NCBI GenBank assembly: GCA_018692315.1
Contig: JABHKC010000165.1
Location: 1 to 40,978, forward strand
Source of the DNA: Bacteroidota bacterium
Lineage (GTDB): Bacteria; Bacteroidota; Bacteroidia; Bacteroidales; JABHKC01
Length of the DNA: 40,978 bases
Direction of reading: 5' to 3'
The notes below the pieces were generated by a model. The model saw only the letters and a list, made by a program, of their open reading frames with translations, did no database searches and was not told the origin of the DNA. Below are positions 3,931 to 40,907 of the stretch, one piece after another; the first letter of the stretch is position 1, and each line of letters begins with the position of its first letter. The position numbers and the translations under genes are program-made.

Positions 3931-4188
3931 TATGCCAGCACTTTGCATCCATACACATTGTCAAATAGTGCAAAAAGCCTACAACACGAAAAATTCTTGT
4001 CATAGAGAGTGCAATACCACCACTTTTTTGTCGGCTAGAAAAAACTAAATTAGGACAGTGCCAAATTGAAAATGAAATGACAAAAATAAAGAAGGCCCAG
4101 CATACAACACCTAAGAATACGAAAACAACAAAAAACCACCAAACCGAGCTCAGTAGTTTTAATATTTTTTATTTGTAGCAATATTTGA
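3931..4188 (+). repeat. Non-coding cassette-tail region with partial dispersed repeat
   Basis: No gene is seen here. Directly after the hsdM stop, a box GCCAGCAC (3934-3941) begins an imperfect hairpin in which TTTGCA (3942-3947) pairs with TGCAAA (3969-3974), followed by GCCTACAACAC. A second unit starts at 4095 (GCCCAGCATACAACACC) and continues with CTAAGAATAC and an A-rich stretch to about 4144. That second unit matches the start of the repeats at 5157, 6325, 21156 (minus) and 23458 (minus). The arrangement of gene stop followed by tail recurs at the next two loci. Confidence 0.6.
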
Positions 4189-4518
4189 ATGAAGACAATA
4201 CGATTAATATTAACATTTTATAAGTCATTCGCATTTATTAGTTTATTAATAACTTGCACTTGCCTAGGACTTCTATATGGTTTTGGAGCAAAAGGGATTT
4301 ACATGATTCAAGCATTATTTTGGTTTAAGATTATTACGCTTGCATTAACTGTATATTTTGTAAATATTTATAAAAAAAATCAATTTTACTATTATAAAAA
4401 TCTTGGTTTGTCAAGATTGATAATTTGGATTCCTATTATAGTCTTTGACTTTTTATTATTCTTAATTCCTTCAATAATTTTAGCATCACACCTTCATGAA
4501 ACACTCCCTGGAAGTTGA
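4189..4518 (+). CDS. Small integral membrane protein, likely partner of the ABC ATPase
   Basis: The 109-residue product is highly hydrophobic, with about three membrane segments (roughly residues 12-33, 39-58 and 76-100) and a positively charged loop, YKKNQFYYYKN, between the second and third. No family is recognised with certainty. Its last 23 nt overlap the start of the ABC ATPase gene, which indicates translational coupling and a shared job. It is too small to be a conventional ABC permease, so it could work as an oligomer or as an accessory subunit. It is probably transcribed from within the AT-rich region before 4189. The functional link to the ATPase is inferred from the overlap. Confidence 0.75.
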   Translation: MKTIRLILTFYKSFAFISLLITCTCLGLLYGFGAKGIYMIQALFWFKIITLALTVYFVNIYKKNQFYYYKNLGLSRLIIWIPIIVFDFLLFLIPSIILASHLHETLPGS

Positions 4519-5176
4519 CAGTATAATTCTTGAATTTGACACTAAAAGAATACTTCAGGATGTTTATCTCAAAAATGAAACTGGGAAAACAACTGGAATT
4601 CTTGGGCGAAATGGCTCTGGAAAAACATGTCTTTTGAATATTATCTATGGAGAACTTAAAACAAATAATAAGTCAATTCGATTGGATGGAAATGCTATAT
4701 ATGATGGATATCGAAATCCTGAAATTTTACGATATTTGCCTCAATTCAATTTTATCCCGCGAAACATAAAAATCAAAAGAATTTTTAAAGACTTCAACAT
4801 AGATTTTTCTCAGTTCATTGGATACTTCCCAGAATTCAAAAAATACTACAATTCAAAAATAGGAAATCTATCAGGAGGGGAAAATAGAATCGTTGAGATT
4901 TACTCAATAATTGCTTCAAAAACAAAATTTTGCATGTTGGATGAACCGTTTTCACAAGTTATGCCTGTGCATGTTGATACAATAAAAAACATTGTGAGAG
5001 CTGAGAAAGAAAAAAAAGGAATTATTATTACAGACCATTTATATGAACACATAATTGATATTTGCGATGATATTTATGTAATTTCTAATGGCAAAACATA
5101 TTTGACTCAAGACAAAGCGGATCTAATAAAACATGGATATATAAATCAAAAAGGTTCCCAACACCCAAGAAAATAA
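4496..5176 (+). CDS. ABC transporter ATP-binding protein
   Basis: This is a complete 226-residue single nucleotide-binding domain. Walker A is GRNGSGKT (37-44), the signature LSGGE lies near 124-128, Walker B is FCMLDEP near 145, and the H-loop is in IIITDHLYEH. The stretch DEPFSQVMPVHVDTIK is, from memory, typical of a Bacteroidota subfamily that sits beside small membrane proteins. It would power transport, or an ATP-driven conformational change, with the overlapping upstream membrane protein; the substrate is unknown. The last seven codons (ending SQHPRK) run into the dispersed repeat that begins at 5157, so the C-terminus is partly repeat-encoded. This is the same arrangement as at the end of the hydrolase at 6336. 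Confidence 0.9.
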   Translation: MKHSLEVDSIILEFDTKRILQDVYLKNETGKTTGILGRNGSGKTCLLNIIYGELKTNNKSIRLDGNAIYDGYRNPEILRYLPQFNFIPRNIKIKRIFKDFNIDFSQFIGYFPEFKKYYNSKIGNLSGGENRIVEIYSIIASKTKFCMLDEPFSQVMPVHVDTIKNIVRAEKEKKGIIITDHLYEHIIDICDDIYVISNGKTYLTQDKADLIKHGYINQKGSQHPRK

Positions 5177-5310
5177 AAACAGCGAAAAACTAATAAGTCC
5201 CAATGAAAAATAGGGATTTACTTTTTTTCACCATCTTTACATATTTAATGAAATTAAAAGATGAGTTTACAAGATTTTTACTGAATTTGTTGGTTTGGGT
5301 TTAGTTCAAC
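5157..5310 (+). repeat. Dispersed repeat, shortened copy (R2)
   Basis: It starts CCCAACACCCAAGAA and continues with AAAAACAGCG. A hairpin-like segment follows (GTCCC-AATGAAAAATA-GGGAT), then an ACATCTTTACAT-like stretch. It closes with GGTTTGGGTTTAGTTCAA (5292-5309), the same end as the copy at 23157-23458. Compared with that copy, about 130 bp are missing from the middle. The rest of the gap, to 5478, shows no gene. Confidence 0.6.
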
Positions 5311-5478
5311 ATCCAAGATAAATAATTGGGCAGAAAATGGTAGATATGAATGAATTAGTAATAAATAAACACAGTAGTAAAATGAAATTTTGGAGCATTG
5401 AAATGCCAAACACATCATATTCAAAATTTGATGTGTAAGCAAAACAAACGACAGAATTAATATTTAGAAGGACAAAAT

Positions 5479-6336
5479 ATGACAACAGAAAATAAAGCTT
5501 GGTTAGACAAAAAACAATATCCATTCAATTCAAATTATTTTGATTTACCAATTGGAAAATTGCACTATGTGGACGAAGGAAAAGGCGAGCCAATTGTTTT
5601 TGTTCACGGAAATCCAGGTTGGTCTTATGAATATAGAAAATCAATTAAGGTATTATCAAAAACAAATAGATGCATTTCGGCAGACAATATTGGTTTTGGA
5701 CTTTCTGATAAACCATTTGACTGGAATTACTTACCGAAAAATCACGCTGCAAACTTTGAAAAATTCATCAATCATTTGAATTTAGACAAATTTGTTTTAG
5801 TAGTAAATGATTGGGGTGGACCGATTGGATTATCCTATGCGATTAATAATCCAGACAAAATAAAACACTTGATTATTACAAATACATGGATGTGGTCAGC
5901 CAAAGACGACCCATATTACAAAAAATTTAGTGGATTTGTTGGTGGACCTATAGGACGGTTTTTAATAAAGAACTTTAATTTTTTCGGAAAGATAATAATC
6001 AAAAAATGTATCGTTGACAAAAAACATTTTGATCCCACAATTTACAGACATCTTGAAACAAAAAAGGATAGAAAAGGTTGTTGGACTTTTCCTAAACAAA
6101 TAATTGCATCAAGTGAATGGCTTGACAGTTTATGGCAGAAACGCAAGAATTTAGACAATATTCCAAAAACATTAATTTGGGGAATGAAAGACATTGCATT
6201 TAGAGAACAAGAATTAAATGTTTGGGAAAAGGAATTAACAAACAAAACGGTCATAAAACTTGACAATGTTGGGCATTATCCACACGAAGAAGCTACTGGA
6301 ATATTTATTGAAGAATTAAAGAAAGCCAGCACATAA
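5479..6336 (+). CDS. Alpha/beta hydrolase, haloalkane dehalogenase-like (subfamily III signature)
   Basis: The 285-residue protein has a complete alpha/beta-hydrolase core. HGNP at 43-46 supplies the oxyanion loop and Asn45. The nucleophile is Asp111 in NDWGG, with Trp112 next to it. Asp238 (WGMKD) and His266 (VGHYPHEE) complete the triad. Haloalkane dehalogenases hydrolyse carbon-halogen bonds through an Asp nucleophile and hold the halide with Trp plus either Asn or a second Trp. Asp-His-Asp with Asn-Trp is the HLD-III pattern. The substrate cannot be read from sequence, and an epoxide hydrolase or other Asp-nucleophile enzyme remains possible. It has no signal peptide. The last four codons (KAST) lie in the repeat tail starting at 6325, so the gene is one unit of the cassette-like array. 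Confidence 0.85.
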   Translation: MTTENKAWLDKKQYPFNSNYFDLPIGKLHYVDEGKGEPIVFVHGNPGWSYEYRKSIKVLSKTNRCISADNIGFGLSDKPFDWNYLPKNHAANFEKFINHLNLDKFVLVVNDWGGPIGLSYAINNPDKIKHLIITNTWMWSAKDDPYYKKFSGFVGGPIGRFLIKNFNFFGKIIIKKCIVDKKHFDPTIYRHLETKKDRKGCWTFPKQIIASSEWLDSLWQKRKNLDNIPKTLIWGMKDIAFREQELNVWEKELTNKTVIKLDNVGHYPHEEATGIFIEELKKAST

Positions 6337-6415
6337 TGCACCTACGAATATAAAAGTAGCAAGAAACCAAAATACATGGTTTATTGCCGATTAAAATTCG
6401 GGATTGATTAAATCC
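6325..6415 (+). repeat. Dispersed repeat, partial copy (R3), with following non-coding region to 6651
   Basis: It begins GCCAGCACATAATGCACC, followed by TACGAATATAAAAGTAGC. The hairpin arm CCGATTAAAATTCGGGATTGA and TAAATCC follow, matching the middle of the copy at 23157-23458 (CCCGATGAAAAATCGGGATTGA, then TAAATCC). The hydrolase stop codon lies inside it. Between 6416 and 6651 only a promoter candidate for the next gene is seen. Confidence 0.6.
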
Positions 6416-6519
6416 TAAATTTAATGAAAATGGTAGTCGAAATTTTGTTACATAATTTGAAAAGGTTTTTGTTGCTCTTTTTTGGAAGAACTATTTCAAA
6501 ATAATTGACCTTTATAAAA

Positions 6520-20711: not shown

Positions 20712-20876
20712 TGGATTTTTTCAAAAGCATTTTTTGTCCGGATTTTATATTAAGGCATGCCTATTTTCATATAGTGTAATCACTGATAATCAATATATTA
20801 TATTCAAACAATTTGTTGTATTCAATGGTTTATTAAGTTATTGACTATCTTGATAAATGCGTTTCAATATATTTTA

Positions 20877-20914
20877 TCACTAATGGCAAAATAAAATATT
20901 TTACCCATTAGTGA
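20877..20914. repeat. Perfect 10-bp stem hairpin
   Basis: TCACTAATGG (20877-20886) pairs perfectly with CCATTAGTGA (20905-20914) around an 18-nt AT-only-rich loop. It directly abuts the dispersed repeat copy R4. It could be part of that repeat's end or a weak terminator after rlmB. Confidence 0.5.
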
Positions 20915-20918
20915 CAAA

Positions 20919-21156
20919 ATGTAAAGATGAATAAAAAAATGAATTTACAGTAAAAGGTTTGCCTGAGTTGTTGGACAAAAAAATGCAATAGAAAATCCGT
21001 TTCCATTCAATACCCGCGAATCATAAAAAATACATTCAGAAAATCCTATAAAAAAACACTGCTATGTACTACCTTGGGCTTAGTCCAATCCCAATTTTTC
21101 ATCAGGACTGAGTCAGGCACAGTAGTTCCACGTTGTTTTTATATTCTTAGGTGTTG
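20919..21156 (-). repeat. Dispersed repeat, copy R4, downstream of the SGNH gene
   Basis: Read on the minus strand it starts CAACACCTAAGAATATAAAA (21156 leftwards). It continues through CAGTCC-TGATGAAAAATT-GGGATTG and ACTAAGCCCAAGG. It ends with TTTTACTGTAAATTCA and a CATCTTTACAT stretch near 20919. It matches R5 (23157-23458) at both ends and diverges in the middle. The rest of 20712-21222 shows no gene. Confidence 0.65.
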
Positions 21157-21222
21157 GTAGTTGTTTTCTATGAAAGAGTGAATTTGTTCTACTATCAAAA
21201 TATTCAGTAATTTAATTAATTC

Positions 21223-23016
21223 CTATTGTTTAATCAACTTTAATGCCAACCGTTTATTGTTTTTTAGTCTAATATAATAAACCCCAGCTGGTAAATCTGA
21301 AATATTAATTATTGTTATTGTGGCCACTTCTTTCTCTTTTACTATTCGTCCGATTGCATTATAAATTTGAATCTGTTCCTGTATAATGTTTTTTGTAAAT
21401 TTAATAGTAATAGTTTCGGATGCGGGGTTTGGGGACATACTCCAAAATAAATTCTGATTGCAATCATTAATGTTTTCTATTCCTACTACTACTCCACAAT
21501 CATATTCAATAACATATGAGGTGGTATCAAGAGGGCAATTGGAGTTTGGAGCAACAATCTTACACTCATATATTCCCGAGCCGGTAATTAATAATGTATC
21601 TTCATTAGACATATTTGATAATAGTATACTATTTTTAAACCATAGGATAATTTCTGAGCCAGATAGAAAACCATTAACATGTAATACTGCAAATGCTACT
21701 GTATCTCCTACACAAGGATCACCAAGTGCGTCATAGAAATAACCCGACCATTCAGGAGTTTCTGAATATGCTTCTGATAATTCAGAACAACCATTAACGG
21801 TAGAAATAACAGAAAATCCCGAAATATTATATTGAGCATAATCGGATAAATATTGATTAGTTTCAGTTATAGGCAATCCCCATACTAACCATTGATAAGT
21901 ATCTGCAGCTTGTGTCCAAAGAGTATCAACATTACACAACCAGGGATGAGATGTAATAATGGTTGGTGTATGGCTACAAAATTGAATAACTGTATCCTTA
22001 ATACTGGTATATGATCCCTGTAGATCACAATTTGTTGTTGTTAATTCAACTATGTAGTTTCCATCTAAAAGATAGGAATGTGTTGGATAGTGCAGAGTCG
22101 ATGTAGTATTATCACCAAAGTCCCAAAAATAATTTTGCTGAACACTTTGGAGATTTTTTGGACTAAAAAATACTTCATTTACGCCGGAGCCTGTTGTATA
22201 TCCAAAATCGGAAATTGGAGGTTTCTTATAATCCCACAAATTCAAATTGTCATAAACTTTTGTTTTGGCTGCACTTCTAATAATAGAAGCAACAGTTGCA
22301 TTTAAACCGAAATTAAATGTGATCAATGTAGGGTCTTTTTTGAAAACTGCTGCATAAAAACAACATGCTGCAGCATAAGACCCCGTAGCTGATGGATGAC
22401 TTTCGTCTGCTTGATACAATTCAATGCTTGGATGATTTTGCCGAAGATAACTCCATACAACAGATACAGGAGAAACTTCTCCATTCACAAATAATGTTTT
22501 TTCCAAATATTTGTTTCTTAATGTAGTGTCCATACCTTGATAAGTACACATTACAGGGAAAGCTAAACAATTTGACGCATCTCCATTTTTTCTCCCCCAA
22601 GTCATAAAGGGCATAATTATAGTACAAGGATTATATTGTCTGATTTGGTTATATAAAGCTGAGAAGCCATTTGCAAAATCATAGGGATTCGTAATTGGTT
22701 CTTGACTTTGTCCTTGCAAAACAATGTAATCCCAACAACCAGCCACTATTTTATTTTGGCTAACAGCATTAAGGCTATGATCTATTAACTGGTATCCTCC
22801 AGGCGTATGACTGTCAAAAATCAAGGTATCTCCAACTGATAGGGCAACATCACTTATAATTTGGGGTAAATTATTAACTCCGGTATAACTATTTCCTAAG
22901 AATAGAACCTTGTTACTTTGTTGGCCTTTTAGCACTGACCCCGAACATAAGAGTAGTAATGACAAGAAAATGATAAGAAAATGATTTTTTTTATTTATTG
23001 TTATGTACTTTTTCAT
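21223..23016 (-). CDS. Secreted SGNH/GDSL hydrolase-like protein with PKD and T9SS sorting domains
   Basis: This is a 597-residue exported protein with a signal peptide at about 1-31. The SGNH-like domain (about 35-245) has VLFLGNSYTG with Ser43, LQGQSQEP as the probable oxyanion block, and ESHPSATGSY with Asp204 and His207. This fits a DUF4886/SGNH esterase acting on acetylated or acylated glycans. A PKD domain follows near 275-335 (YFWDFGDNTTST), then an Ig-like region. The C-terminal T9SS signal contains MSPNPASETITIKF and ends LALKLIKQ. The gene is flanked on both sides by copies of one dispersed repeat in the same orientation, so it may have moved as a unit. The enzymatic role is inferred. 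Confidence 0.85.
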   Translation of the reverse strand: MKKYITINKKNHFLIIFLSLLLLCSGSVLKGQQSNKVLFLGNSYTGVNNLPQIISDVALSVGDTLIFDSHTPGGYQLIDHSLNAVSQNKIVAGCWDYIVLQGQSQEPITNPYDFANGFSALYNQIRQYNPCTIIMPFMTWGRKNGDASNCLAFPVMCTYQGMDTTLRNKYLEKTLFVNGEVSPVSVVWSYLRQNHPSIELYQADESHPSATGSYAAACCFYAAVFKKDPTLITFNFGLNATVASIIRSAAKTKVYDNLNLWDYKKPPISDFGYTTGSGVNEVFFSPKNLQSVQQNYFWDFGDNTTSTLHYPTHSYLLDGNYIVELTTTNCDLQGSYTSIKDTVIQFCSHTPTIITSHPWLCNVDTLWTQAADTYQWLVWGLPITETNQYLSDYAQYNISGFSVISTVNGCSELSEAYSETPEWSGYFYDALGDPCVGDTVAFAVLHVNGFLSGSEIILWFKNSILLSNMSNEDTLLITGSGIYECKIVAPNSNCPLDTTSYVIEYDCGVVVGIENINDCNQNLFWSMSPNPASETITIKFTKNIIQEQIQIYNAIGRIVKEKEVATITIINISDLPAGVYYIRLKNNKRLALKLIKQ

Positions 23017-23156
23017 TTGAATTGTTTTTAAGATTACAAATTCATCTGTATAATTTAAATATCCACTTGGTGCTTTCCTGTCAGACCATGATGAAGTTTG
23101 AGCGGGCTACAAACCTTGAAATATATTGCTTTTCCTGCCAATACTTATACAAAATG

Positions 23157-23458
23157 TTGAACTAAACCCAAGCCAGCTAATTCAGTAATAATCACGTAAG
23201 TTCATCTTTGTTAATTTATTAAAATATGTAAAGATGGATAAAAAAAGTGAATTTACAGTAAAAGGATTGCCTGAAATATTGGACAAAAAATGCAACAGGA
23301 ATTCCGCCTCTCTCCAAAATCCCTGAATTATTAAAATTACATATAGGATAAGACCTACCCAATAAACCCTCTGGCTTGGATTTAGTTCAATCCCGATTTT
23401 TCATCGGGACTGAACCCGGCTCAACAGTTTTACGCTGCTTTTATATTCTTAGGTGTTG
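23157..23458 (-). repeat. Dispersed repeat, fullest copy R5, containing a 234-bp element with 20-bp inverted ends
   Basis: On the minus strand it starts CAACACCTAAGAATATAAAA at 23458 and passes through the hairpin GTCCCGATGAAAAATCGGGAT. It then contains an element bounded by inverted repeats TTGAACTAAACCCAAGCCAG (23157-23176) and CTGGCTTGGATTTAGTTCAA (23371-23390), with one mismatch in 20. No coding sequence is inside. The structure resembles a MITE joined to a cassette-like tail. The remaining sequence 23017-23156 shows nothing recognisable. Confidence 0.7.
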
Positions 23459-23582
23459 TGTGGCGTTTATATTCTTTTCTCGGCGAAGTAAATATTTCAA
23501 TTTTGAGTTCTTCCATTTCGATAAATTGTTCTGTAAACTTTAAGTCAATGGAGTATTTTACAATCAATATTTTTGTCCGCAT
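23430..23582 (-). pseudogene. 50-residue ORF ending inside repeat R5, probable gene remnant
   Basis: It reads MRTKILIVKYSIDLKF and ends TTPKNIKAA; the last dozen or so codons lie in the conserved start of the repeat. A stop lies just upstream in frame. No family is recognised. The arrangement copies that of the ABC ATPase and hydrolase, whose last codons also run into the repeat, so it may be the 3' end of a lost gene. The rest of 23583-23737 shows no gene. Confidence 0.3.
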
Positions 23583-31322: not shown

Positions 31323-34300
31323 ATGGAAAGAAAATTAATTATTACAGTAATCACACTATTTTTGGCATTTTGTATAAATTCTAAAACTATTTCCGCTAAA
31401 ATAGAAAAATATGAAAACTCAGAAATGAATTTGAACAACACAATAGTTTTGAGTTATAATATTTCTGACTATAATGGATACAACCTAAGTTGTTTTGGCG
31501 AAAATGACGGATTTATTCAAGCCATAGCTTCAGGAGGCACTCCTCCATTTTCATATTTATGGTCAACCGGCGACACTATTGCAGATTTGCAAAATCTGGC
31601 TGCCGGAACTTATTATCTCACAGTAAGCGACTTTAATAGCCAAATTGTTACAGACAGTATTTCGCTTTCACAAGCTGATGAATTATATATTTCACCCTAT
31701 ATTTATCAAACTTCCTCAATTGGCGCAACAGATGGTAGCATTTCAATTTATATTTCAGGAGGAAATACCCCATATAGTTTTTTGTGGAGCAATGGTGAAA
31801 CAAACGAAGATTTGAGTAATATTCAAACTGGTTTATACAGTTTCACTGTTTCTGATGCAAATTCTTGTTTCGCTATTGATTCTTTTCTTGTGCCTGAAGG
31901 AATTTTTCATGAAGTTTCAGGTTTAAATATAATTGGAATTGAAGATGCATCAGTAGATTGGGGCGATTATGACAATGATGGAGATTTAGATTTTATTTTC
32001 TCTGGAACTATAGATGGTAGTTCAACTAATGCAATTACACGAATTTATAAAAATCAAGGAAACGATGTATTTTCTATACTTGCTGCATCGAACATTGAAG
32101 ATTTATGCAAAGGAACAGTTTCTTGGGCAGATTACAATAACGATGGACTTTTAGATTTCCTTGCCACCGGATATACTTATTTAAATGAAAGAAAAAGCAT
32201 AATATATAGAAACAACGGAAACGATACTTTTACTGAAATTACAAGTGCAAATATCGAAGGAATAGCATACAGTTCTGTTGACTGGGGCGACTATGACAAT
32301 GATGGCGATTTAGATATACTAATAGCAGGAAGTAGTGTATCGAACTATTATTCGACAAAAATTTATAAAAATAATGGAAATGATAGTTTCACAGAATTAA
32401 CCAATTTGTCTTTGATAGGAATTACCTACGGAGAAGCCAAATGGGGCGATTTCGACAAGGATGGAGATTTGGATATTTTTTTATCAGGAAGAACGTCCTT
32501 AGATAGGATTAGTACAATATTTTCGAATGAAGGAAACGATAATTTTAGTCAAATTTCCGGATTACCGTTTGTTGTTGTTGCATATAGTTCGGTTGCTTGG
32601 GGCGACTATGACAGTGATGGAGATTTGGATTTGTTATTAACCGGCAATGAAGATTATTATTCTTCTGATGCAATTGTAAAAATATATAAAAATAATGGAA
32701 ATTTTGATTTTTCGGAACTTTCCGGTTTATTTTCAAATGGAATATATAATGGTTCGGTAGCCTGGGGCGATTGCAATAACGATGGGCTACTTGATGTAAT
32801 TCTTACAGGAGATTGTTCATACAGTTTTGTAATGAATAAAATTTTGAAAAATAATGGAGATGACACCTTCACAGATTTGTATTATTTTCCATTAGGACAT
32901 TTAGACAATTCATCCATAGATATAGGTGATTATGATAATGATGGAGATTTGGATATTATAGAAACCGGCTATTATAACAGTAATACTAACCTATTTAAAC
33001 TTTTTAAGAACGATATTAATTCTACAAATAATCCTCCATCGGCACCAGAAAACTTACAAACTTCATTTCTTAGTTTCAACAAATTACAACTAAGTTGGAA
33101 TCAAACAACAGATGATTTGACACCACAAAACGGGATTACTTATAATTTTTATTTACGAAAAGTAAGTGGTGAAATTATTTATAATTCAATGGCAGATATA
33201 AATACAGGCTACCGAAAAATATCAGAGTCAGGAAATGCAGCTTTTGATACTTCATTTACAGTACAATACCTCGATACAGGAGTTTATATTTGGAGTGTTC
33301 AGGCAATAGATAATTGCTATCTTGGTTCTGAATTTGCAATTACCGATACTTTCGAGATTCAAGTTAAAATAACTCCTAATTTAATAGATTTTGGAACTTT
33401 AACTACAAGTATTTCAGATACATCACAGTTTATTTCTATTTTTAATTTATCTCAAGATACAATCGTTATTGATAGTTTAAATTTATTGGAAGAGCCTTTT
33501 AGTATTGGTTTCAATACATTCCCGATTGAAATTTTACCGGGCGATTCAATTTTCATTGAAATATCAATAAATCAAGCTTTTACAAATGGATTTTATAATG
33601 AAACATTAAATATTTATTCTTCAGATTTTTCGTCTCCTATTCTATTCGAAGTTTTAGGTGGAATATCTTTATATGAAATAGTTACAGGAACAAATATCGA
33701 AGGAGTTCAGGGGAGCATAGCCGAATGGGGCGATTATGATAATGATGGAGATTTAGATCTTTTGCTATTTGGCCAAATATATAATTATCCGAATACAATC
33801 TACAAAAACAAACTATATAAAAACAATGGAAACGATACATTTACAGAAATAGCTGAATTTCCGGCAATACAATCAACTGACGATATTGAATGGGGCGATT
33901 ACGATAATGATGGCGATTTAGATTTTATTGTTGCCGGTAGAATTTCTTATTACGATGGCCTTACCAAAATTTACAAAAACAATGGAAATGACACATTTAC
34001 AGAACTTGTTGTAAACGATTTAGAACAAGTTAGAGATGGAGCAGTAGCCTGGGGCGATTGCGACAACGATGGCGATTTGGATATTTTACTCACAGGAGAA
34101 AGAAATTCATATTATCCTATTTCAAAAATTTATATAAATAATGGAAACGATAATTTTTCCGCTTTAAGTAATATTTCAATTGAATGGATTGAAGACAGTG
34201 AGCAAAAATGGGTAGATTTTGATAATGACAGCGATTTAGATTTCTTATTAAGTGGAATAGACAATGCCAATAATAAAATAACCAAACTATATATAAATGA

Positions 34301-37300
34301 AGGTGAAAATTCCTTCACAGAGTCGCAAACAGCATTTCAGGGATTTATTGATGCTTCAATTGCTTGTGGCGACTACGACCAGGATGGTGATATTGATATT
34401 TTGATTTGTGGCTCAACAGATTATAATAATGCAGGAATTATGACAAAATTGTACAAAAATCAAGGGAATAATCAGTTTTTGGACATTATTGGTTTTTCAA
34501 TTCCTGAAGTTTACAATCAGTCAATAGCATTTGGCGATTACGATAATGATGGAGATTTAGATGTCCTGATATCAGGTTCAAATAGCTGGACACAAGCAAT
34601 AAGTAGAATCTATCGCAATGAAGGCAACGATATATTTACGGAAGTAAAAACCTTACCATTTGAAGGCATTTCCTTTGGTACCGCAATTTTTGGCGATTAC
34701 GATAACGATAAAGATTTAGATGTGTTTCTAAGCGGAAGTAATGCTTTGGGACAACCAGTTTGCAATATTTACAAAAACTATTGTTTAACTGAAAACAACC
34801 CTCCTACTCCACCAACTTATTTAGAGATTTCCATAACTGGTTTTAATGATGTTAAACTTGCGTGGAATCCTGCATCAGACGACCATAGTTTACAAAACAG
34901 TTTGAGCTATAATGTTTATCTGTACAAAATTGGTGGCGATACCATTTGGAACTCTATGTCGAACATTTCTTCAGGTAACAGAAAAATTGTCTCTATGGGA
35001 AGCACAAATTTAGATACCTCATGGACAATAAATAATCTTGTAGCCGGAACATATGCCTGGAGCGTTCAGGCAATTGACAATAGTTTTATAGGTTCAGAAT
35101 TTGCTCTTGAAGACACTTTTGAAACTACAATAAATATTTCTCCTAATTCTGTCGATTTTGGGCAAAACCTGCCAAACATTAATGACACCTCAATAAGATA
35201 TACGATTAGCAATTTTGGTCAGAATACAATTACAATTGATAGTCTAAGCCAAATTTCCCAGCCTTTTAGTTATACAACTACAAGCCTGCCATATCAAATC
35301 ATTCCCGGAGATTCACTTATAATTCACATAAGTTTCAATCGAATGCACGAAGATGGATATTTTGAACAATCATTAAATATTTACAGCTCTGTATCCCTTG
35401 AACCTACCGTATTAAACATTGAAGGTGAAATACACTATTTTACTGAAGTTCAGGGCAATAATATTGAAGGGCTTTATGAAGGTATAACAGATTGGGCAGA
35501 TTATGATAATGACGGCGATTTAGATTTTATTATAGCAGGTCGAACTTCTTCTTGGAATGTAAAATACACAAGAGTCTATCAAAATTTCGGAAACAATAGT
35601 TTTGTCTATTTGCCAAGCACTCCTTTTTCTGGCGTATCAAATGGTTCTACTTCATGGGGCGATTACGATAATGATGGCGATTTGGATGTTTTATTAACTG
35701 GTAGCCAATATAGTTCACCCTCAAATATTTCAAGAATATACAAAAATCTCGGAAATGGAAATTTTTCATTACTAACTGACCTTTATGGAATGTCATTAAG
35801 TGAAGGAGAATGGGCAGATTTTGATAACGATGGCGATTTAGATATTCTAATATCCAGCAATTATTATGGAACTAAATTATACAAAAACGAAGGAAATGAC
35901 ATATTTACCGAAATGGCAGACTTAGGATTTCCTAATAATGGCGGAGCAATAGATTGGGGCGACTACGATAATGATATGGATTTAGATGTTTTATTTTATT
36001 CTGGCAACAGTGATTGTATTGTTTATAGAAATGACGGAAACGATACTTTTTATGAAATATCAATTAGCACATTATCGGTAAATACAAAACCAAGAGCCTA
36101 CTGGAGCGATTTAGATAATGATGGAGATCTTGATATTTTCTTATTACGAACTACAACATCCTACAATTCCTCTGATGTTTCAGCATTCATATACGAAAAT
36201 ATTGGTAACGACAATTTTTCGGAAATTACAGGTCTGTCAATGATTGCACCGATTGACGGCTCTGTTGATTTAGGCGACTACGATAATGATGGAGATATTG
36301 ACATTTTCCTATGCGGAAAAAAGGATTACTCTCCTAAAAGTTGGATTTATAAAAATAATGGTAATTTTTCATTCACTGAATTTCCTCTTTCAAGTATAAC
36401 CGGTGCTACCGGTAGTTCTTCAAAATGGGGCGATTATGATAATGATGGCGATTTAGATCTATTACTCACTGGGCATGATGGTACAGACATTATTTCCACT
36501 GTTTTTAAAAACAACTGCTTAGCACAAAACAATCCTCCATTGTCGCCACAAAATCTAAACTCCTTTGCAACAAGAAATGATGAAATATTGCTTTCGTGGG
36601 ACAAATCTACAGATGATGTAACACCACAAAACAGCTTGAGCTATAACTCATTTTTATATAAAGTTGGTGGCGACACTATCTGGAGTTCAATGTCCGACAA
36701 TACTTCCGGGCTAAGAAGGATTCCAGATAACGGAAATGCAAGCAAGGACACTTCATGGCTAATAAATAATCTTAATTTTGGAACTTACAATTGGAGCGTA
36801 CAAACAGTTGATCGAGCATACTCGGGTTCGGAATTTGCAATTGAAGCAAGTTTTGAGATGAATATTCTTATCGAATCTGAAACAATTGATTTTGACACAG
36901 TTAGCATTAGTAATATTTCAGATACTACAAAATACTTTACAATTTCAAACTTTAGCCAAAACGATATCATCCTTGATAGTATAAAAATAGAAAATAATGT
37001 ATTTAGCTGCGGTATAAATAATTTTTCATACACAATTCTTTCTGGCGATTCCTTGCAAATTCCTATCATTATGCACCGTACTCAAATCGGATATTCCGAA
37101 TCTGTTATTGATATTTATATTTCACAATTTCCCTTACCATCGCAAATTTTGGCCAAAGGTTCTGTTAGCCAGTTTGTAAAAGTTGAAGGATTGCAGTTTC
37201 AACAAATTGCAAACGGCTATGTATCATGGGGAGATTGCGACAACGACAACGATTTAGACATTTTACTTACCGGAAGTACAAATTCCGACACTATTTCGAG

Positions 37301-40300
37301 AATTTATATTAATGAAGGAAATGATATTTTCAATGAAATAACTACAGCAAATATTGATGGAGTTGAAAACAGCGTAACAGATTGGGGCGATTACGACAAG
37401 GATGGCGATCTTGATATTTTAATAGTTGGCGGCTCGAATAATTCGACTGCTATGTGCAAAATTTACAGAAATGACGGTAATAATATTTTTATTGAATTAA
37501 CAAATCTAAACTTGGAACAGTATTATGATGGAGCTGCTGCCTGGGGCGATTATGATAACGATGGCGACTTAGATTTTATTTATTCCGGAACCAAAATTAT
37601 AAATCAGGTTTATACCAAAATTTATGAAAATAAGGGAAACGATATTTTTGAACCATTAGTTGGAGCAAATATTACAGGATTTTACGACAATTCTATTGCC
37701 TGGGGCGATTACGACAACGATAGTGATTTAGATATTCTGATTTCCGGCAGAACAACTACTTATTCGGGTGATGCTGCAAGCAAAGTTTATAAAAATAATG
37801 GGAATGGAAATTTCACAGAATTGACAAACCTTCCTTTTGTCCAGATATATAAAAGTGAAGTTTCATGGGGCGACTATGACAATGATGGAGATCTTGATAT
37901 TCTATTAAACGGAACAACCAGTTATTCGGGTAGTGAATATCATTCTAAAATATACAAAAACATTGGAAATGACAGTTTTACTGAATTAATCGGAATGCCA
38001 TTTGAAAACCTCGGAGAGGGTTCGCTTATTTGGGGCGATTACGATAACGATGGCGATTTAGATGTTTTTAGTTCTGGCAAATCAGGTCCTTGGCAAAACA
38101 TTATTATCAAATCAATAATGTATTTAAATGAAGGAAACGATATTTTCACAGAATCGGAAGGCTATTATTTAGAAAATGTTTACAATAGCTCAATAGTCAG
38201 TGCCGATTACGATAACGATGGCGATTTAGATATTCTACTCACCGGGCTAAATCAATCAGAAGAGCCAGTTACAATTTTGTATAAAAATCACACTTTTATT
38301 CAAAATAATCCTCCGCAAACTCCTACAAATATTAGTAGCGAAATTGTTGCAATAAATGAGACAAAACTAAGCTGGAACAAAACAACAGACGATAATACAC
38401 CTCAAGATGGTTTAAGCTATAATGCTTATATATATAAAGTTGGAGGCGATACCGTTTGGAGTTCTATGGCAAATATCAATACAGGTTTTAGGAAAATTCC
38501 AAAAATTGGAAATTCCAATTTGGATACTACTTGGACAATCAATAGTCTTGAAACCGGACTATATAAATGGAGCGTTCAAGCAATTGATAATTCATTTTTT
38601 GGTTCTGAATTTGCAATTGAAGAAAGCTTTGAAATATTTACTCAAATTGATGAAACAATTCTCGATTTCGGAAGAGTTCCGCTGCACCCAAGCCTTGATT
38701 CTATATTGTCTGTTAAAATTAAAAATTCTGCACAAAACTCTCTCTCTATCAACAATATTGTTATAAATTCTCCTTATAGTCATAATATCCCAAACCTTCC
38801 TTATACAATTGCACAATCCGATTCCTTGATTATTGATGTTTCTCTTGATCGCAGTCATCTTGAAGGAAAATACTACGACACTTTAGAAATATATTTTGCA
38901 CAATACAATCACTCAACTGAAATTATTTTAAAAAGTTATTTAGCTAGATTTACAGAACTCCCGGGCTTAAACTTGCCGGAAATTTCTAGGGGTACAACAG
39001 CTTGGGGCGATTATGATGGCGATGGCGATCTTGATGTTCTCCTTACCGGAAGATATTCTATTATTGATATTACAAAGCTTTATAAGAATATAGGCAACGA
39101 CAATTTCCAACAAGTTGTAGGTTTGCCTTTTGCAAATGTTATGAATAGTTCGGCAGCCTGGGGCGATTGCGACAAAGACGGCGATTTAGACCTTTTCCTA
39201 TCAGGATATACTGATAATGGACCAATTTCCAGGATATATAAAAACGAAGGTGATGATCTTTTCACTGAAATGTCTTTCCCATTTCCAAATTTAGAATCTG
39301 GAGCAGTAGCCTGGGGCGATTACGATAATGATGGAGATCTTGATATTTTACTATCAGGAATGATGAGTTATCAAAATTATTTTACTTATATCTTTAAAAA
39401 TGCAGGGGATTTTGATTTCAATCTAATAAGCACTCCCAATATTCCATATCTTAGAAAATCTTCAGTTGCATGGGGCGACTACGATAAAGATAACGATTTG
39501 GATATATTAATTTCCGGCTCAAGTAGCACAGAAGATATTTGTAATGTGTATAAAAATATGGGAAATGATACATTTTCCGCATTAGCTGAATTCTCTGTTT
39601 CCGGAGACTATGGAACAGTTGAATGGGCAGATTTCAACAACGATGGATATCTTGACATTTTATTTGCCGGACAAAATAATTTTAATTCAGAAATTTACAT
39701 ATATTTGAATCAAGCAAATGATACTTTTATTAATATTTCAAATTTAGAATTATCAGGAGCTCGCTATGGCAAAACCACTTGGGGCGATTGCGACAACGAT
39801 GGCGATTTAGATATTTTTACTACAGGTGAAAATTCATCGGAACACATTACAAAAATATACAAGAATCAAGGGAACAATGTATTTACTGAAATGGGAGGTT
39901 CCGATTTAGTTGGAGTCCAAAATAGTTCTCTATCTCTTGGCGACTACGATTTCGATGGAGACCTGGATTTTATTCTTCTTGGCGAAAAAGACACCTATAA
40001 TAAACTATGCAGAATTTATAAAAACCATAGTTACACTACAAATAATCCACCTTTGGCACCAAATAATTTGTCATCTGAAATAAATGACACCATCACTAAT
40101 TTGTCATGGGAAAAATCTACAGACGACCATAGCTCACAAAATGCTTTGAGTTATAATGGATATTTATACAAAGTTGGTGGCGATACAATTTGGAGTTCTA
40201 TGTCGGATATAAATTCCGGATTTAGAAGAATACCTGCTTTGGGTAACGCAAGCCTCAACACTTCCTGGGCTATCAAAAATCTTAGTTCCGGAAACTATCA

Positions 40301-40907
40301 CTGGAGCGTTCAGGCAATCGACAATTCTTATTCAGGTTCTCCATTTGCTCCCGAGCAGCTTATTTCTATTTTTGGTGTAGATTTCGTTGCAGATACTACC
40401 ATCGGATATGCTCCACTTCAAGTTCAATTTACCGACCTGTCCACCGGAAACATATTACTTAGATATTGGGATTTTGGCGATGGAAATACAAGTATGGATC
40501 AAAATCCAGTCCATATTTTTGCAGATACCGGTTCATACACAATCCAACTAATAGTGTCCGATGGAGTAGAAATAGATACATTGATAAAACTAAACTATAT
40601 TTTTGTAGAAGAAGGAACTTTTGTACCAAACTTTGCGGATTCAAAACCATTCATTCTCCACCAAAACAAACCAAATCCTTTTGCAGAAACAACAGAAATT
40701 TCGTTCTACATCCCAAAACAAACTGAAGTTGAAATTTCAATTTATAATATTCTTGGAGAAAAAATTCAAACTCTTGTATCAAAAACTTACTCAATCGGGG
40801 AGCATTCAATAAAATTCAATTCAAAAAATTACAATCTAGGAACATATTTTTATAAAATGACTTGCCCTGATTTTGTTGACACAAAAAATATGATTATTTT
40901 GGAATGA
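31323..40907 (+). CDS. Giant T9SS surface protein: SprB repeats, five FG-GAP/VCBS propellers, FN3 and anchor domains, PKD
   Basis: This is a 3194-residue exported protein. After the signal peptide (about 1-25) come two SprB-type repeats (about 50-190, GGTPPFSYLWSTGDT and GGNTPYSFLWSNGET). Five blocks of seven FG-GAP/VCBS repeats follow, at about 193-563, 783-1153, 1370-1731, 1950-2326 and 2541-2904. Each repeat has a D-x-D-x-D-G calcium-type loop (WGDYDNDGDLD). Each block is followed by an FN3-like domain starting NNPP. The first four FN3 domains are followed by a choice-of-anchor-type domain (PN.[IV]DFG ... GDS). A PKD domain (about 3018-3100, WDFGDGNTS) and a T9SS sorting domain (about 3106-3194, KPNPFAETTEISFYI) end the protein. 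It is probably a calcium-dependent adhesin or matrix protein; the ligand is unknown. Confidence 0.93.
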   Translation: MERKLIITVITLFLAFCINSKTISAKIEKYENSEMNLNNTIVLSYNISDYNGYNLSCFGENDGFIQAIASGGTPPFSYLWSTGDTIADLQNLAAGTYYLTVSDFNSQIVTDSISLSQADELYISPYIYQTSSIGATDGSISIYISGGNTPYSFLWSNGETNEDLSNIQTGLYSFTVSDANSCFAIDSFLVPEGIFHEVSGLNIIGIEDASVDWGDYDNDGDLDFIFSGTIDGSSTNAITRIYKNQGNDVFSILAASNIEDLCKGTVSWADYNNDGLLDFLATGYTYLNERKSIIYRNNGNDTFTEITSANIEGIAYSSVDWGDYDNDGDLDILIAGSSVSNYYSTKIYKNNGNDSFTELTNLSLIGITYGEAKWGDFDKDGDLDIFLSGRTSLDRISTIFSNEGNDNFSQISGLPFVVVAYSSVAWGDYDSDGDLDLLLTGNEDYYSSDAIVKIYKNNGNFDFSELSGLFSNGIYNGSVAWGDCNNDGLLDVILTGDCSYSFVMNKILKNNGDDTFTDLYYFPLGHLDNSSIDIGDYDNDGDLDIIETGYYNSNTNLFKLFKNDINSTNNPPSAPENLQTSFLSFNKLQLSWNQTTDDLTPQNGITYNFYLRKVSGEIIYNSMADINTGYRKISESGNAAFDTSFTVQYLDTGVYIWSVQAIDNCYLGSEFAITDTFEIQVKITPNLIDFGTLTTSISDTSQFISIFNLSQDTIVIDSLNLLEEPFSIGFNTFPIEILPGDSIFIEISINQAFTNGFYNETLNIYSSDFSSPILFEVLGGISLYEIVTGTNIEGVQGSIAEWGDYDNDGDLDLLLFGQIYNYPNTIYKNKLYKNNGNDTFTEIAEFPAIQSTDDIEWGDYDNDGDLDFIVAGRISYYDGLTKIYKNNGNDTFTELVVNDLEQVRDGAVAWGDCDNDGDLDILLTGERNSYYPISKIYINNGNDNFSALSNISIEWIEDSEQKWVDFDNDSDLDFLLSGIDNANNKITKLYINEGENSFTESQTAFQGFIDASIACGDYDQDGDIDILICGSTDYNNAGIMTKLYKNQGNNQFLDIIGFSIPEVYNQSIAFGDYDNDGDLDVLISGSNSWTQAISRIYRNEGNDIFTEVKTLPFEGISFGTAIFGDYDNDKDLDVFLSGSNALGQPVCNIYKNYCLTENNPPTPPTYLEISITGFNDVKLAWNPASDDHSLQNSLSYNVYLYKIGGDTIWNSMSNISSGNRKIVSMGSTNLDTSWTINNLVAGTYAWSVQAIDNSFIGSEFALEDTFETTINISPNSVDFGQNLPNINDTSIRYTISNFGQNTITIDSLSQISQPFSYTTTSLPYQIIPGDSLIIHISFNRMHEDGYFEQSLNIYSSVSLEPTVLNIEGEIHYFTEVQGNNIEGLYEGITDWADYDNDGDLDFIIAGRTSSWNVKYTRVYQNFGNNSFVYLPSTPFSGVSNGSTSWGDYDNDGDLDVLLTGSQYSSPSNISRIYKNLGNGNFSLLTDLYGMSLSEGEWADFDNDGDLDILISSNYYGTKLYKNEGNDIFTEMADLGFPNNGGAIDWGDYDNDMDLDVLFYSGNSDCIVYRNDGNDTFYEISISTLSVNTKPRAYWSDLDNDGDLDIFLLRTTTSYNSSDVSAFIYENIGNDNFSEITGLSMIAPIDGSVDLGDYDNDGDIDIFLCGKKDYSPKSWIYKNNGNFSFTEFPLSSITGATGSSSKWGDYDNDGDLDLLLTGHDGTDIISTVFKNNCLAQNNPPLSPQNLNSFATRNDEILLSWDKSTDDVTPQNSLSYNSFLYKVGGDTIWSSMSDNTSGLRRIPDNGNASKDTSWLINNLNFGTYNWSVQTVDRAYSGSEFAIEASFEMNILIESETIDFDTVSISNISDTTKYFTISNFSQNDIILDSIKIENNVFSCGINNFSYTILSGDSLQIPIIMHRTQIGYSESVIDIYISQFPLPSQILAKGSVSQFVKVEGLQFQQIANGYVSWGDCDNDNDLDILLTGSTNSDTISRIYINEGNDIFNEITTANIDGVENSVTDWGDYDKDGDLDILIVGGSNNSTAMCKIYRNDGNNIFIELTNLNLEQYYDGAAAWGDYDNDGDLDFIYSGTKIINQVYTKIYENKGNDIFEPLVGANITGFYDNSIAWGDYDNDSDLDILISGRTTTYSGDAASKVYKNNGNGNFTELTNLPFVQIYKSEVSWGDYDNDGDLDILLNGTTSYSGSEYHSKIYKNIGNDSFTELIGMPFENLGEGSLIWGDYDNDGDLDVFSSGKSGPWQNIIIKSIMYLNEGNDIFTESEGYYLENVYNSSIVSADYDNDGDLDILLTGLNQSEEPVTILYKNHTFIQNNPPQTPTNISSEIVAINETKLSWNKTTDDNTPQDGLSYNAYIYKVGGDTVWSSMANINTGFRKIPKIGNSNLDTTWTINSLETGLYKWSVQAIDNSFFGSEFAIEESFEIFTQIDETILDFGRVPLHPSLDSILSVKIKNSAQNSLSINNIVINSPYSHNIPNLPYTIAQSDSLIIDVSLDRSHLEGKYYDTLEIYFAQYNHSTEIILKSYLARFTELPGLNLPEISRGTTAWGDYDGDGDLDVLLTGRYSIIDITKLYKNIGNDNFQQVVGLPFANVMNSSAAWGDCDKDGDLDLFLSGYTDNGPISRIYKNEGDDLFTEMSFPFPNLESGAVAWGDYDNDGDLDILLSGMMSYQNYFTYIFKNAGDFDFNLISTPNIPYLRKSSVAWGDYDKDNDLDILISGSSSTEDICNVYKNMGNDTFSALAEFSVSGDYGTVEWADFNNDGYLDILFAGQNNFNSEIYIYLNQANDTFINISNLELSGARYGKTTWGDCDNDGDLDIFTTGENSSEHITKIYKNQGNNVFTEMGGSDLVGVQNSSLSLGDYDFDGDLDFILLGEKDTYNKLCRIYKNHSYTTNNPPLAPNNLSSEINDTITNLSWEKSTDDHSSQNALSYNGYLYKVGGDTIWSSMSDINSGFRRIPALGNASLNTSWAIKNLSSGNYHWSVQAIDNSYSGSPFAPEQLISIFGVDFVADTTIGYAPLQVQFTDLSTGNILLRYWDFGDGNTSMDQNPVHIFADTGSYTIQLIVSDGVEIDTLIKLNYIFVEEGTFVPNFADSKPFILHQNKPNPFAETTEISFYIPKQTEVEISIYNILGEKIQTLVSKTYSIGEHSIKFNSKNYNLGTYFYKMTCPDFVDTKNMIILE
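31900..40365 (+). repeat. Five intragenic super-repeats of about 1.73-1.78 kb
   Basis: The NNPP boundary codons lie near 33027, 34793, 36528, 38304 and 40041, so the period is 1735-1776 bp. Within each unit a core close to TGGGGCGATTATGATAATGA recurs about every 160 bp, seven times. The repeats are diverged in the third codon position and in the strands between cores. That suggests old duplication followed by selection on the loop sequence. Confidence 0.85.

Follow-up and report, generated by a model that had tools for sequence, protein, structure and literature searches.

IS91 transposes as a rolling circle from oriIS to terIS and inserts beside a fixed tetranucleotide (the GTTC/CTTG rule), the oriIS of IS91-like elements carries a hairpin, and relatives of IS91 sometimes carry an integrase gene. 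IS1111-type elements are described as targeting attC in the available part of PMC11187229. Integron attC sites are used as folded bottom strands, and attC mutants deprived of the extrahelical bases show increased top-strand recombination, with the crossover moved to R'' (PMC2727003, in the sections at hand). For SE-6945 and SE-6283, tyrosine recombinases have been proposed to circularise one strand; the accessible text of that report found no attC-like inverted repeat at their sites and does not mention an own HUH enzyme (PMC9345347). Bacteroidota are counted among the integron-bearing phyla in excerpts of a review (PMC8618304), and the passages available on IntegronFinder 2.0 name one complete integron in Bacteroidetes, that of Salinibacter ruber M1 (PMC9024848).

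Here we analyze a stretch of 40,978 nucleotides from a Bacteroidales genome (the window), in which a gene for a secreted hydrolase is flanked by two repeats, R4 and R5, that we assign to an element termed E. Like IS91/ISCR, E has a transposase of that family and a hairpin at the transposase 3' end; it differs from them in having a tyrosine recombinase gene as well, inverted ends of cassette type (GTTGAAC/GTTCAAC) and a location in attC-like sites. With the IS1111-attC group (ISKpn4, ISPst6) it shares orientation-specific insertion at one attC end, but that group moves by a DEDD transposase with guide RNA, in place of which E encodes a tyrosine recombinase plus an HUH transposase and carries attC-like termini. 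Searching E for a DEDD (IS110-type) transposase found none; Pfam and NCBIfam give IS91 and tyrosine recombinase. As in integron cassettes, there is an R'-like TTGAAC start, an R''-like CAAC end and a hairpin with spacers and bulges; unlike these, E encodes a recombinase and an HUH enzyme and lies reversed, at the R'' of other attC sites. Among the top-ranked open-licence PMC papers, none described an attC-targeting element of IS91 type that also carries a recombinase; the attC-aiming insertion sequences found described, the IS1111-attC group, have enzymes that differ from those of E.

Results

Two repeat copies flank a secreted hydrolase gene

The gene at 21223..23016 (minus strand) encodes an SGNH-like secreted protein of 597 aa, for which a Pfam scan gave DUF4886 just below the cut-off, PKD and a T9SS sorting domain. 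As the original prediction had claimed, two copies of a repeat bracket this gene in the same orientation: alignment places R4 at about 23155-23459 and R5 at about 20900-21156, both on the minus strand. Read in gene orientation, R4 lies upstream of the gene and R5 begins 69 nt past its stop. The repeat contains more than was first noted, since a complete copy in gene orientation consists of a B part (hairpin head, then tail) followed by an A part. The head of R4 (23391..23459, minus) starts with AAC and is a degenerate form of E's own attC-like hairpin, whose full palindromic counterpart is present in contig C113 and in relatives. Its deleted element body (23156..23390, minus) runs ATTGAAC ... 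GTTTAGTTCAAC, the B tail being joined to the A part. R5 has lost the end of its A part, which is broken off near 20900-20916. Identity between R4 and R5 is 82% over 84 nt, 90% over 50 nt and 75.5% over the whole alignment. In the stretch separating R4 from the hydrolase gene, alignment reveals a degenerate native attC-like site (23036..23155, minus) that resembles the site after the element in C235 (locus L012); neither folds better than shuffled sequences (z +0.43 in the window, +1.03 for the L012 homologue).

Further copies stand in the left array of the window, all on the plus strand. A copy reduced to the hairpin head (4106..4171) is followed by an ORF of 109 aa without Pfam match and a 226-aa ABC ATPase (4189..5176), then by a copy with B head, A part and the element end GTTTAGTTCAAC (5160..5311). 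Directly after that end, homology search and model match identify a native attC (type 1, about 5305..5433). It scores E 1.7e-20 in the homology search and E 4.4e-19 in the site model, of which it is itself a seed, belongs to the same family as an uninterrupted site on contig C8, and has a folding z of -1.31 against shuffles. An alpha/beta hydrolase gene (5479..6336, 285 aa, Pfam) and a B-head copy (6338..6417) close the array. The copies starting at 4107, 5161 and 6339 are real and all lie on the strand of their genes.

An Rfam scan of the window gave no match. A palindrome, CACTAATGGG...CCATTAGTG, occupies 20855-20905, at the break in the A part of R5, and is perhaps a further small element. 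Elsewhere (31323-40907) the window encodes a protein of 3194 aa with about 30 short repeats of roughly 53 aa, which we take to be FG-GAP-like, and five longer repeat units.

The repeat family follows gene ends throughout the genome

The genome of the window (G000, Bacteroidales) comprises 4.98 Mb in 248 contigs and is 99.6% complete. A repeat search in it, with 40 of 135 candidates scored, gave at least 53 matches, in which several copies appear as separate halves. Profiles of both repeat halves, run at E < 1e-4 on 47 sequences (fetched loci) of this genome, yielded 46 B and 33 A hits, one palindrome echo having been removed. These merge into 58 segments in 36 sequences, of which 21 have both parts, 25 B only and 12 A only; about nine copies are head-only or nearly so. 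Chance origin of the family is excluded.

That copies sit at the 3' ends of genes and on the gene's strand had been predicted from the window, and genome-wide this stands: a same-strand ORF (at least 60 aa) ends within -60 to +40 nt at 30 B starts out of 44, a total that includes the palindrome echo, and at 18 of the 30 it ends 10-16 nt before the start. Random control positions give 372 of 4000 (9.3%). The other 14 B starts have no ORF ending nearby. Two of the window copies fit the rule only loosely, as the copy at 4107 begins 177 nt past the nearest long ORF and R4 is preceded only by a short ORF-like remnant. Most B starts, with few exceptions, read YAAC, which is GTT plus purine on the strand used.

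Two observations stand beside this family. At 214-290 of L048 (G000:C72) an E-type hairpin without element body forms an almost complete palindrome behind a short ORF of RelE/ParE-like type (named by eye) and is possibly a solo site. A second E family in the same genome (L155, G000:C129:3471-3597; L159, G000:C26:3387-3513) ends CACCTCACGAATGTGAGGTTTAG|TTCAAC ahead of attC.

Short copies as internal deletions of a coding element

In antisense, the A part corresponds to the leader and initial ~18 codons of a tyrosine recombinase gene; relatives of the repeat that are coding were found as well. This bears out the view that the repeats are mobile-element material, and a simple MITE or terminator is ruled out on the same grounds. 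On C113, the tyrosine recombinase gene of E (1358-2236, minus) adjoins its IS91-family (HUH) transposase gene (162-1376, minus; NF033538), and the right end reads CTCAAC. In this one scanned locus the transposase reaches 411 bits against NF033538 (cut-off 125) and also matches PF04986 and PF14319. No single contig of the window's own genome holds full-length E, which would fit assembly breaks at a multi-copy repeat; contig C146 of the relative G050 carries it whole.

On C139, a segment flanked by an A and a B part (6080-6115) aligns with sequence 3' of the transposase; the short copies are thus a single element that has lost its interior. Inspection by eye shows one deletion junction shared by R4, R5 and a C118 copy, and another common to about eight copies (L006-8021, L008, L014, L015-5537, two in L019, L020, L027). 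This suggests that deleted forms of E were themselves copied, recurrent deletion being the alternative source of common junctions. Judged from these alignments, R4 and R5 appear to be non-autonomous, internally deleted copies of E, and full-length E consists of TTGAAC, the tyrosine recombinase, the IS91-family HUH transposase, (T/G)CAAC and its own attC-like hairpin, in this order. As a separate observation, the E-bearing contig L012 contains a group II intron (Rfam RF00029, 6332-6451, minus), and by eye the sequence downstream of a second E hairpin in L012 (1717-1774) is intron-like.

The ends of E are conserved among relatives

A profile of four recombinases led to 12 loci in named genomes. 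Three at 26-30% identity were left out and nine examined, from two Bacteroidales MAGs (one of them G050), Flexithrix dorotheae (two loci), Salinivirgaceae GH44, Bacteroidales Tobar, a Margulisiibacteriota MAG, Cesiribacter sp. SM1 and Nafulsella turpanensis. Flexithrix, Cesiribacter and Nafulsella extend the family to other Bacteroidota. All nine have TTGAACnnAAC upstream of the recombinase. The other end was reached in six, each with (T/G)CAAC, hairpin and spacer; GTT follows in five, and L104 has ATT in its place, at the contig end. The two Flexithrix loci stop at a contig end, and L105 is without a transposase ORF. GTTGAAC pairs with GTTCAAC in L100, L101 and L104, and with GTGCAAC, at one mismatch, in L106-L108. 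E has complementary R'/R''-type ends and a 3' attC-like hairpin, as a cassette does; since it begins TTGAAC and ends (T/G)CAAC plus its own attC-like hairpin, it is laid out like a cassette. This hairpin folds beyond shuffles in seven of eight sequences (z -2.8 to -5.5); that of G252 does not (z -0.34). Between G000 and G050 the stem changes on both sides, GAATAT/ATATTC versus GCATAT/ATATGC.

At the recombinase end, an attC-like site was seen by eye in five relatives (L100, L103, L106, L107, L108). None was recognized beside E in L104, L105 has another E-type hairpin there and L101 begins at the contig edge. The E copy of L102 (Flexithrix dorotheae NZ_KB903500.1) seems to lie inside the 5' part of a coding sequence, outside attC; the interrupted gene was named by eye as Rossmann-type.

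E occupies one side of attC-like sites

The uninterrupted attC of C8 has homologues directly after the element end GTTTAGTTCAAC in the left array (5317-5424), in C118 and in G026, as well as after the E end of G050. A site covariance model (R1) was built from eight seed sites, seven chosen after E and one without E. It gave at least 34 matches (13 in G000, 18 in G050, three in G026; 150 candidates scored per genome). Reading by eye the 30 matches with loci, we found an E end at 15 and none at 15, a comparison between members of one site family rather than alleles of the R4 and R5 sites. Once the eight seeds are set aside, 22 sites remain, eight with an E end, including two of another E family (C129, C26) and two degenerate ones (C66, C94), and 14 without. 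E meets the site exactly at AAC in 12 of the 15 occupied cases and 6 nt before it in one, the last two being degenerate; by eye it is on the same side in all 15, seven of which are model seeds. Folding of native sites is mixed, with z of -2.43 for L057, -3.73 for L103 and -2.74 for L092.

These sites indicate that E inserts at the R'' (AAC) of attC-like sites in one orientation, opposite to the cassette genes. The fixed orientation of E at R'' explains why its copies stand behind genes and on the same strand as these. An alternative in which the B head serves each gene as its own attC was dropped once the native attC turned up at the opposite end of E.

Cassette arrays without a classical IntI

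Contig C8 holds the clearest cassette array of the genome. It is headed by an integrase gene (L057, G000:C8, 187-1341; 384 aa). Behind this come an attI-like site and the unit GTTATCGGC...GCCGATAAC, then a roughly 120-nt attC and one more unit, GTTAGCTCCC...GGGAGCTAAC; the unit ends are R'/R'' ends like those of integron cassettes. With integrase, attI-like site and attC cassettes the array is like integrons and inverted integrons, and an integrase in the orientation of its genes, as here, is reported for Treponema in the available part of PMC3607928. Unlike IntI, the C8 integrase lacks the IntI-specific segment and has an N-terminal extension of ~100 aa.

Homologues of this integrase (E <= 1e-60) occur in 111 of 393 genomes of the order, own genome included. 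From 24 loci taken, 21 gave the integrase end and 11 had at least 1.3 kb downstream; five of the 11 show an 8-nt end pair against 13-29% of shuffles, a weak test of whether such integrases head arrays. Palindromes plus GTT follow several homologues. Behind C8-type integrases, G232 shows an E-like left end, GTTGAACTAAACCGCC...GGCGGT, in forward orientation, and the G268 contig stops after nine readable letters.

Cassette ends can also be read at genes next to E. Of the 30 genes whose end coincides with a B start, five carry an exact reverse complement of that end, 9-10 nt long (nnnnAAC/GTTnnnn), 18-41 nt before the start codon, compared with an expectation of 0.03 genes with at least 8 nt (1000 permutations); in the other 25 no end pair of at least 8 nt was found. 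In G050:C56, three of three successive genes have matching ends of 9-10 nt (GTTGTGTGGC/GCCACACAAC, GTTGTGCCG/CGGCACAAC, GTTAGCAACA/TGTTGCTAAC), and a deleted E sits at each of the four attC-like sites of the stretch. These cassette ends (GTTnnnn...nnnnAAC) fall outside the repeat, which speaks against the earlier idea that the direct repeats delimit an excised unit. Of ten genes scanned, two had no Pfam match and eight matched GNAT, beta-lactamase-type, AAA/DUF4143, ParE, NACHT, PIN, PfpI-like and trypsin-like domains. L045, L046 and L026 each show the C-terminal part of an integrase and a hairpin common to all three, ahead of different genes, which suggests that ordinary cassettes cross over at G|TT next to attI.

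A search of the own genome for IntI (TIGR02249, cut-off 265 bits) found none above the curated cut-off, and the reading as a classical integron was dropped on this ground. The E recombinase reaches 155 and the C8 integrase 202 bits, and the longer matches skip columns ~180-240. Below-cut-off matches also occur in the 14 control genomes. One of the 80 genomes in the relatives set (own included, the 79 others all of the same order) has an IntI above the cut-off.

Orthologues of the hydrolase gene

Full-length orthologues of the hydrolase were found in G027 (71% identity) and G026 (69%); its remaining matches in the own genome are distant paralogues (<=42%). Conserved synteny without repeats in relatives had been named as the observation that would count against a mobile gene; no such case was encountered. 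The G026 orthologue is again preceded by an E-type end, then an attC of the same family, then GTTATGCG, and is followed by CGCTTAAC, one mismatch away from the complement of GTTATGCG; beside the G027 orthologue neither an element end nor an attC-like site was recognized. Upstream of the window gene no complement of its end was seen, so that a cassette end pair is absent and only the decayed site is left. The hydrolase gene is probably a mobile unit, and probably a decayed cassette between two E-occupied sites whose own cassette ends are no longer recognizable. Its excision through recombination between R4 and R5 is possible but improbable and is not needed to explain the locus.

Discussion

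The likeliest account of R4 and R5, and one we hold with good though not full confidence, is that they are deleted copies of E in attC sites, moved by a route that combines the HUH enzyme with the recombinase. The HUH enzyme would make a single-stranded copy or circle of E, whose hairpin would fold into an attC-like recombination site. The recombinase would then join the folded E to a target attC through the strand that classical IntI does not use, and this would place E at R'', reversed relative to the cassette genes. Deleted copies would be mobilized in trans. An E at R'' and reversed is the outcome expected from top-strand use of the target attC, and an HUH transposase makes single strands, the substrate of folded sites, which is why we propose a circle supplied by the transposase. 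For the hydrolase cassette, the upstream and the downstream attC would each have been hit by E, with the copies decaying afterwards. The broader reading is that E is a self-mobilizing integron cassette with its own recombinase and HUH nuclease, the nuclease providing a single-stranded circle with the hairpin and the recombinase putting it into the top strand of attC, and that E and its deleted derivatives are parasites of Bacteroidota arrays run by integrases without the IntI-specific domain. It is offered tentatively, and we lean slightly against it.

The HUH transposase might instead act alone, inserting E beside GTT plus purine and hitting attC as an extruded hairpin, with the recombinase as multimer resolver or passenger. 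The E transposase scores clearly within the IS91 family, B starts mostly read YAAC, one copy (L102) lies within a coding sequence, and the hairpin is at the transposase 3' end, the position of oriIS (3' boundary) in IS91-like elements according to the available text of PMC9376610. This would leave unexplained why the two ends of E and its hairpin look like R'/R'' boxes and why insertion at the attC R'' is restricted to one strand, and we judge it rather unlikely. Less probable again is that the B head is the cassette attC, the stretch from A to B an old cassette, and host integrases the movers of everything. A gene plus B head does resemble a gene plus attC, C8 has an integrase-headed array and E a cassette-like layout; yet the native attC lies on E's other side, the hairpin moves along with E from family to family, and E runs opposite to the genes.

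The original prediction had favored a composite unit of R4, gene and R5 that excises or transposes through recombination between the repeats. Their shared orientation and deletion junction would suit it. The two match at no more than about 75-82% for most of their extent, however, and any cassette of an array with filled sites, as in G050:C56, comes to be arranged in this way, so we now think it improbable. That the repeats are immobile terminators or REP-like structures at gene ends seems hardly credible, for even though hairpins stand right behind stop codons, the repeats hold a recombinase gene start and have coding relatives.

Reading the repeats as copies of E accounts for their place behind gene ends in the window and for their presence at unrelated small genes. 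If this reading is true, E, as an element that copies the attC architecture and pairs a single-strand nuclease with a tyrosine recombinase, would offer a natural experiment on the evolution of folded single-stranded sites, and on whether cassette recombination needs the IntI-specific domain. Since the curated IntI profile misses the cassette arrays of this genome, gene-cassette mobility in Bacteroidota may be underestimated.
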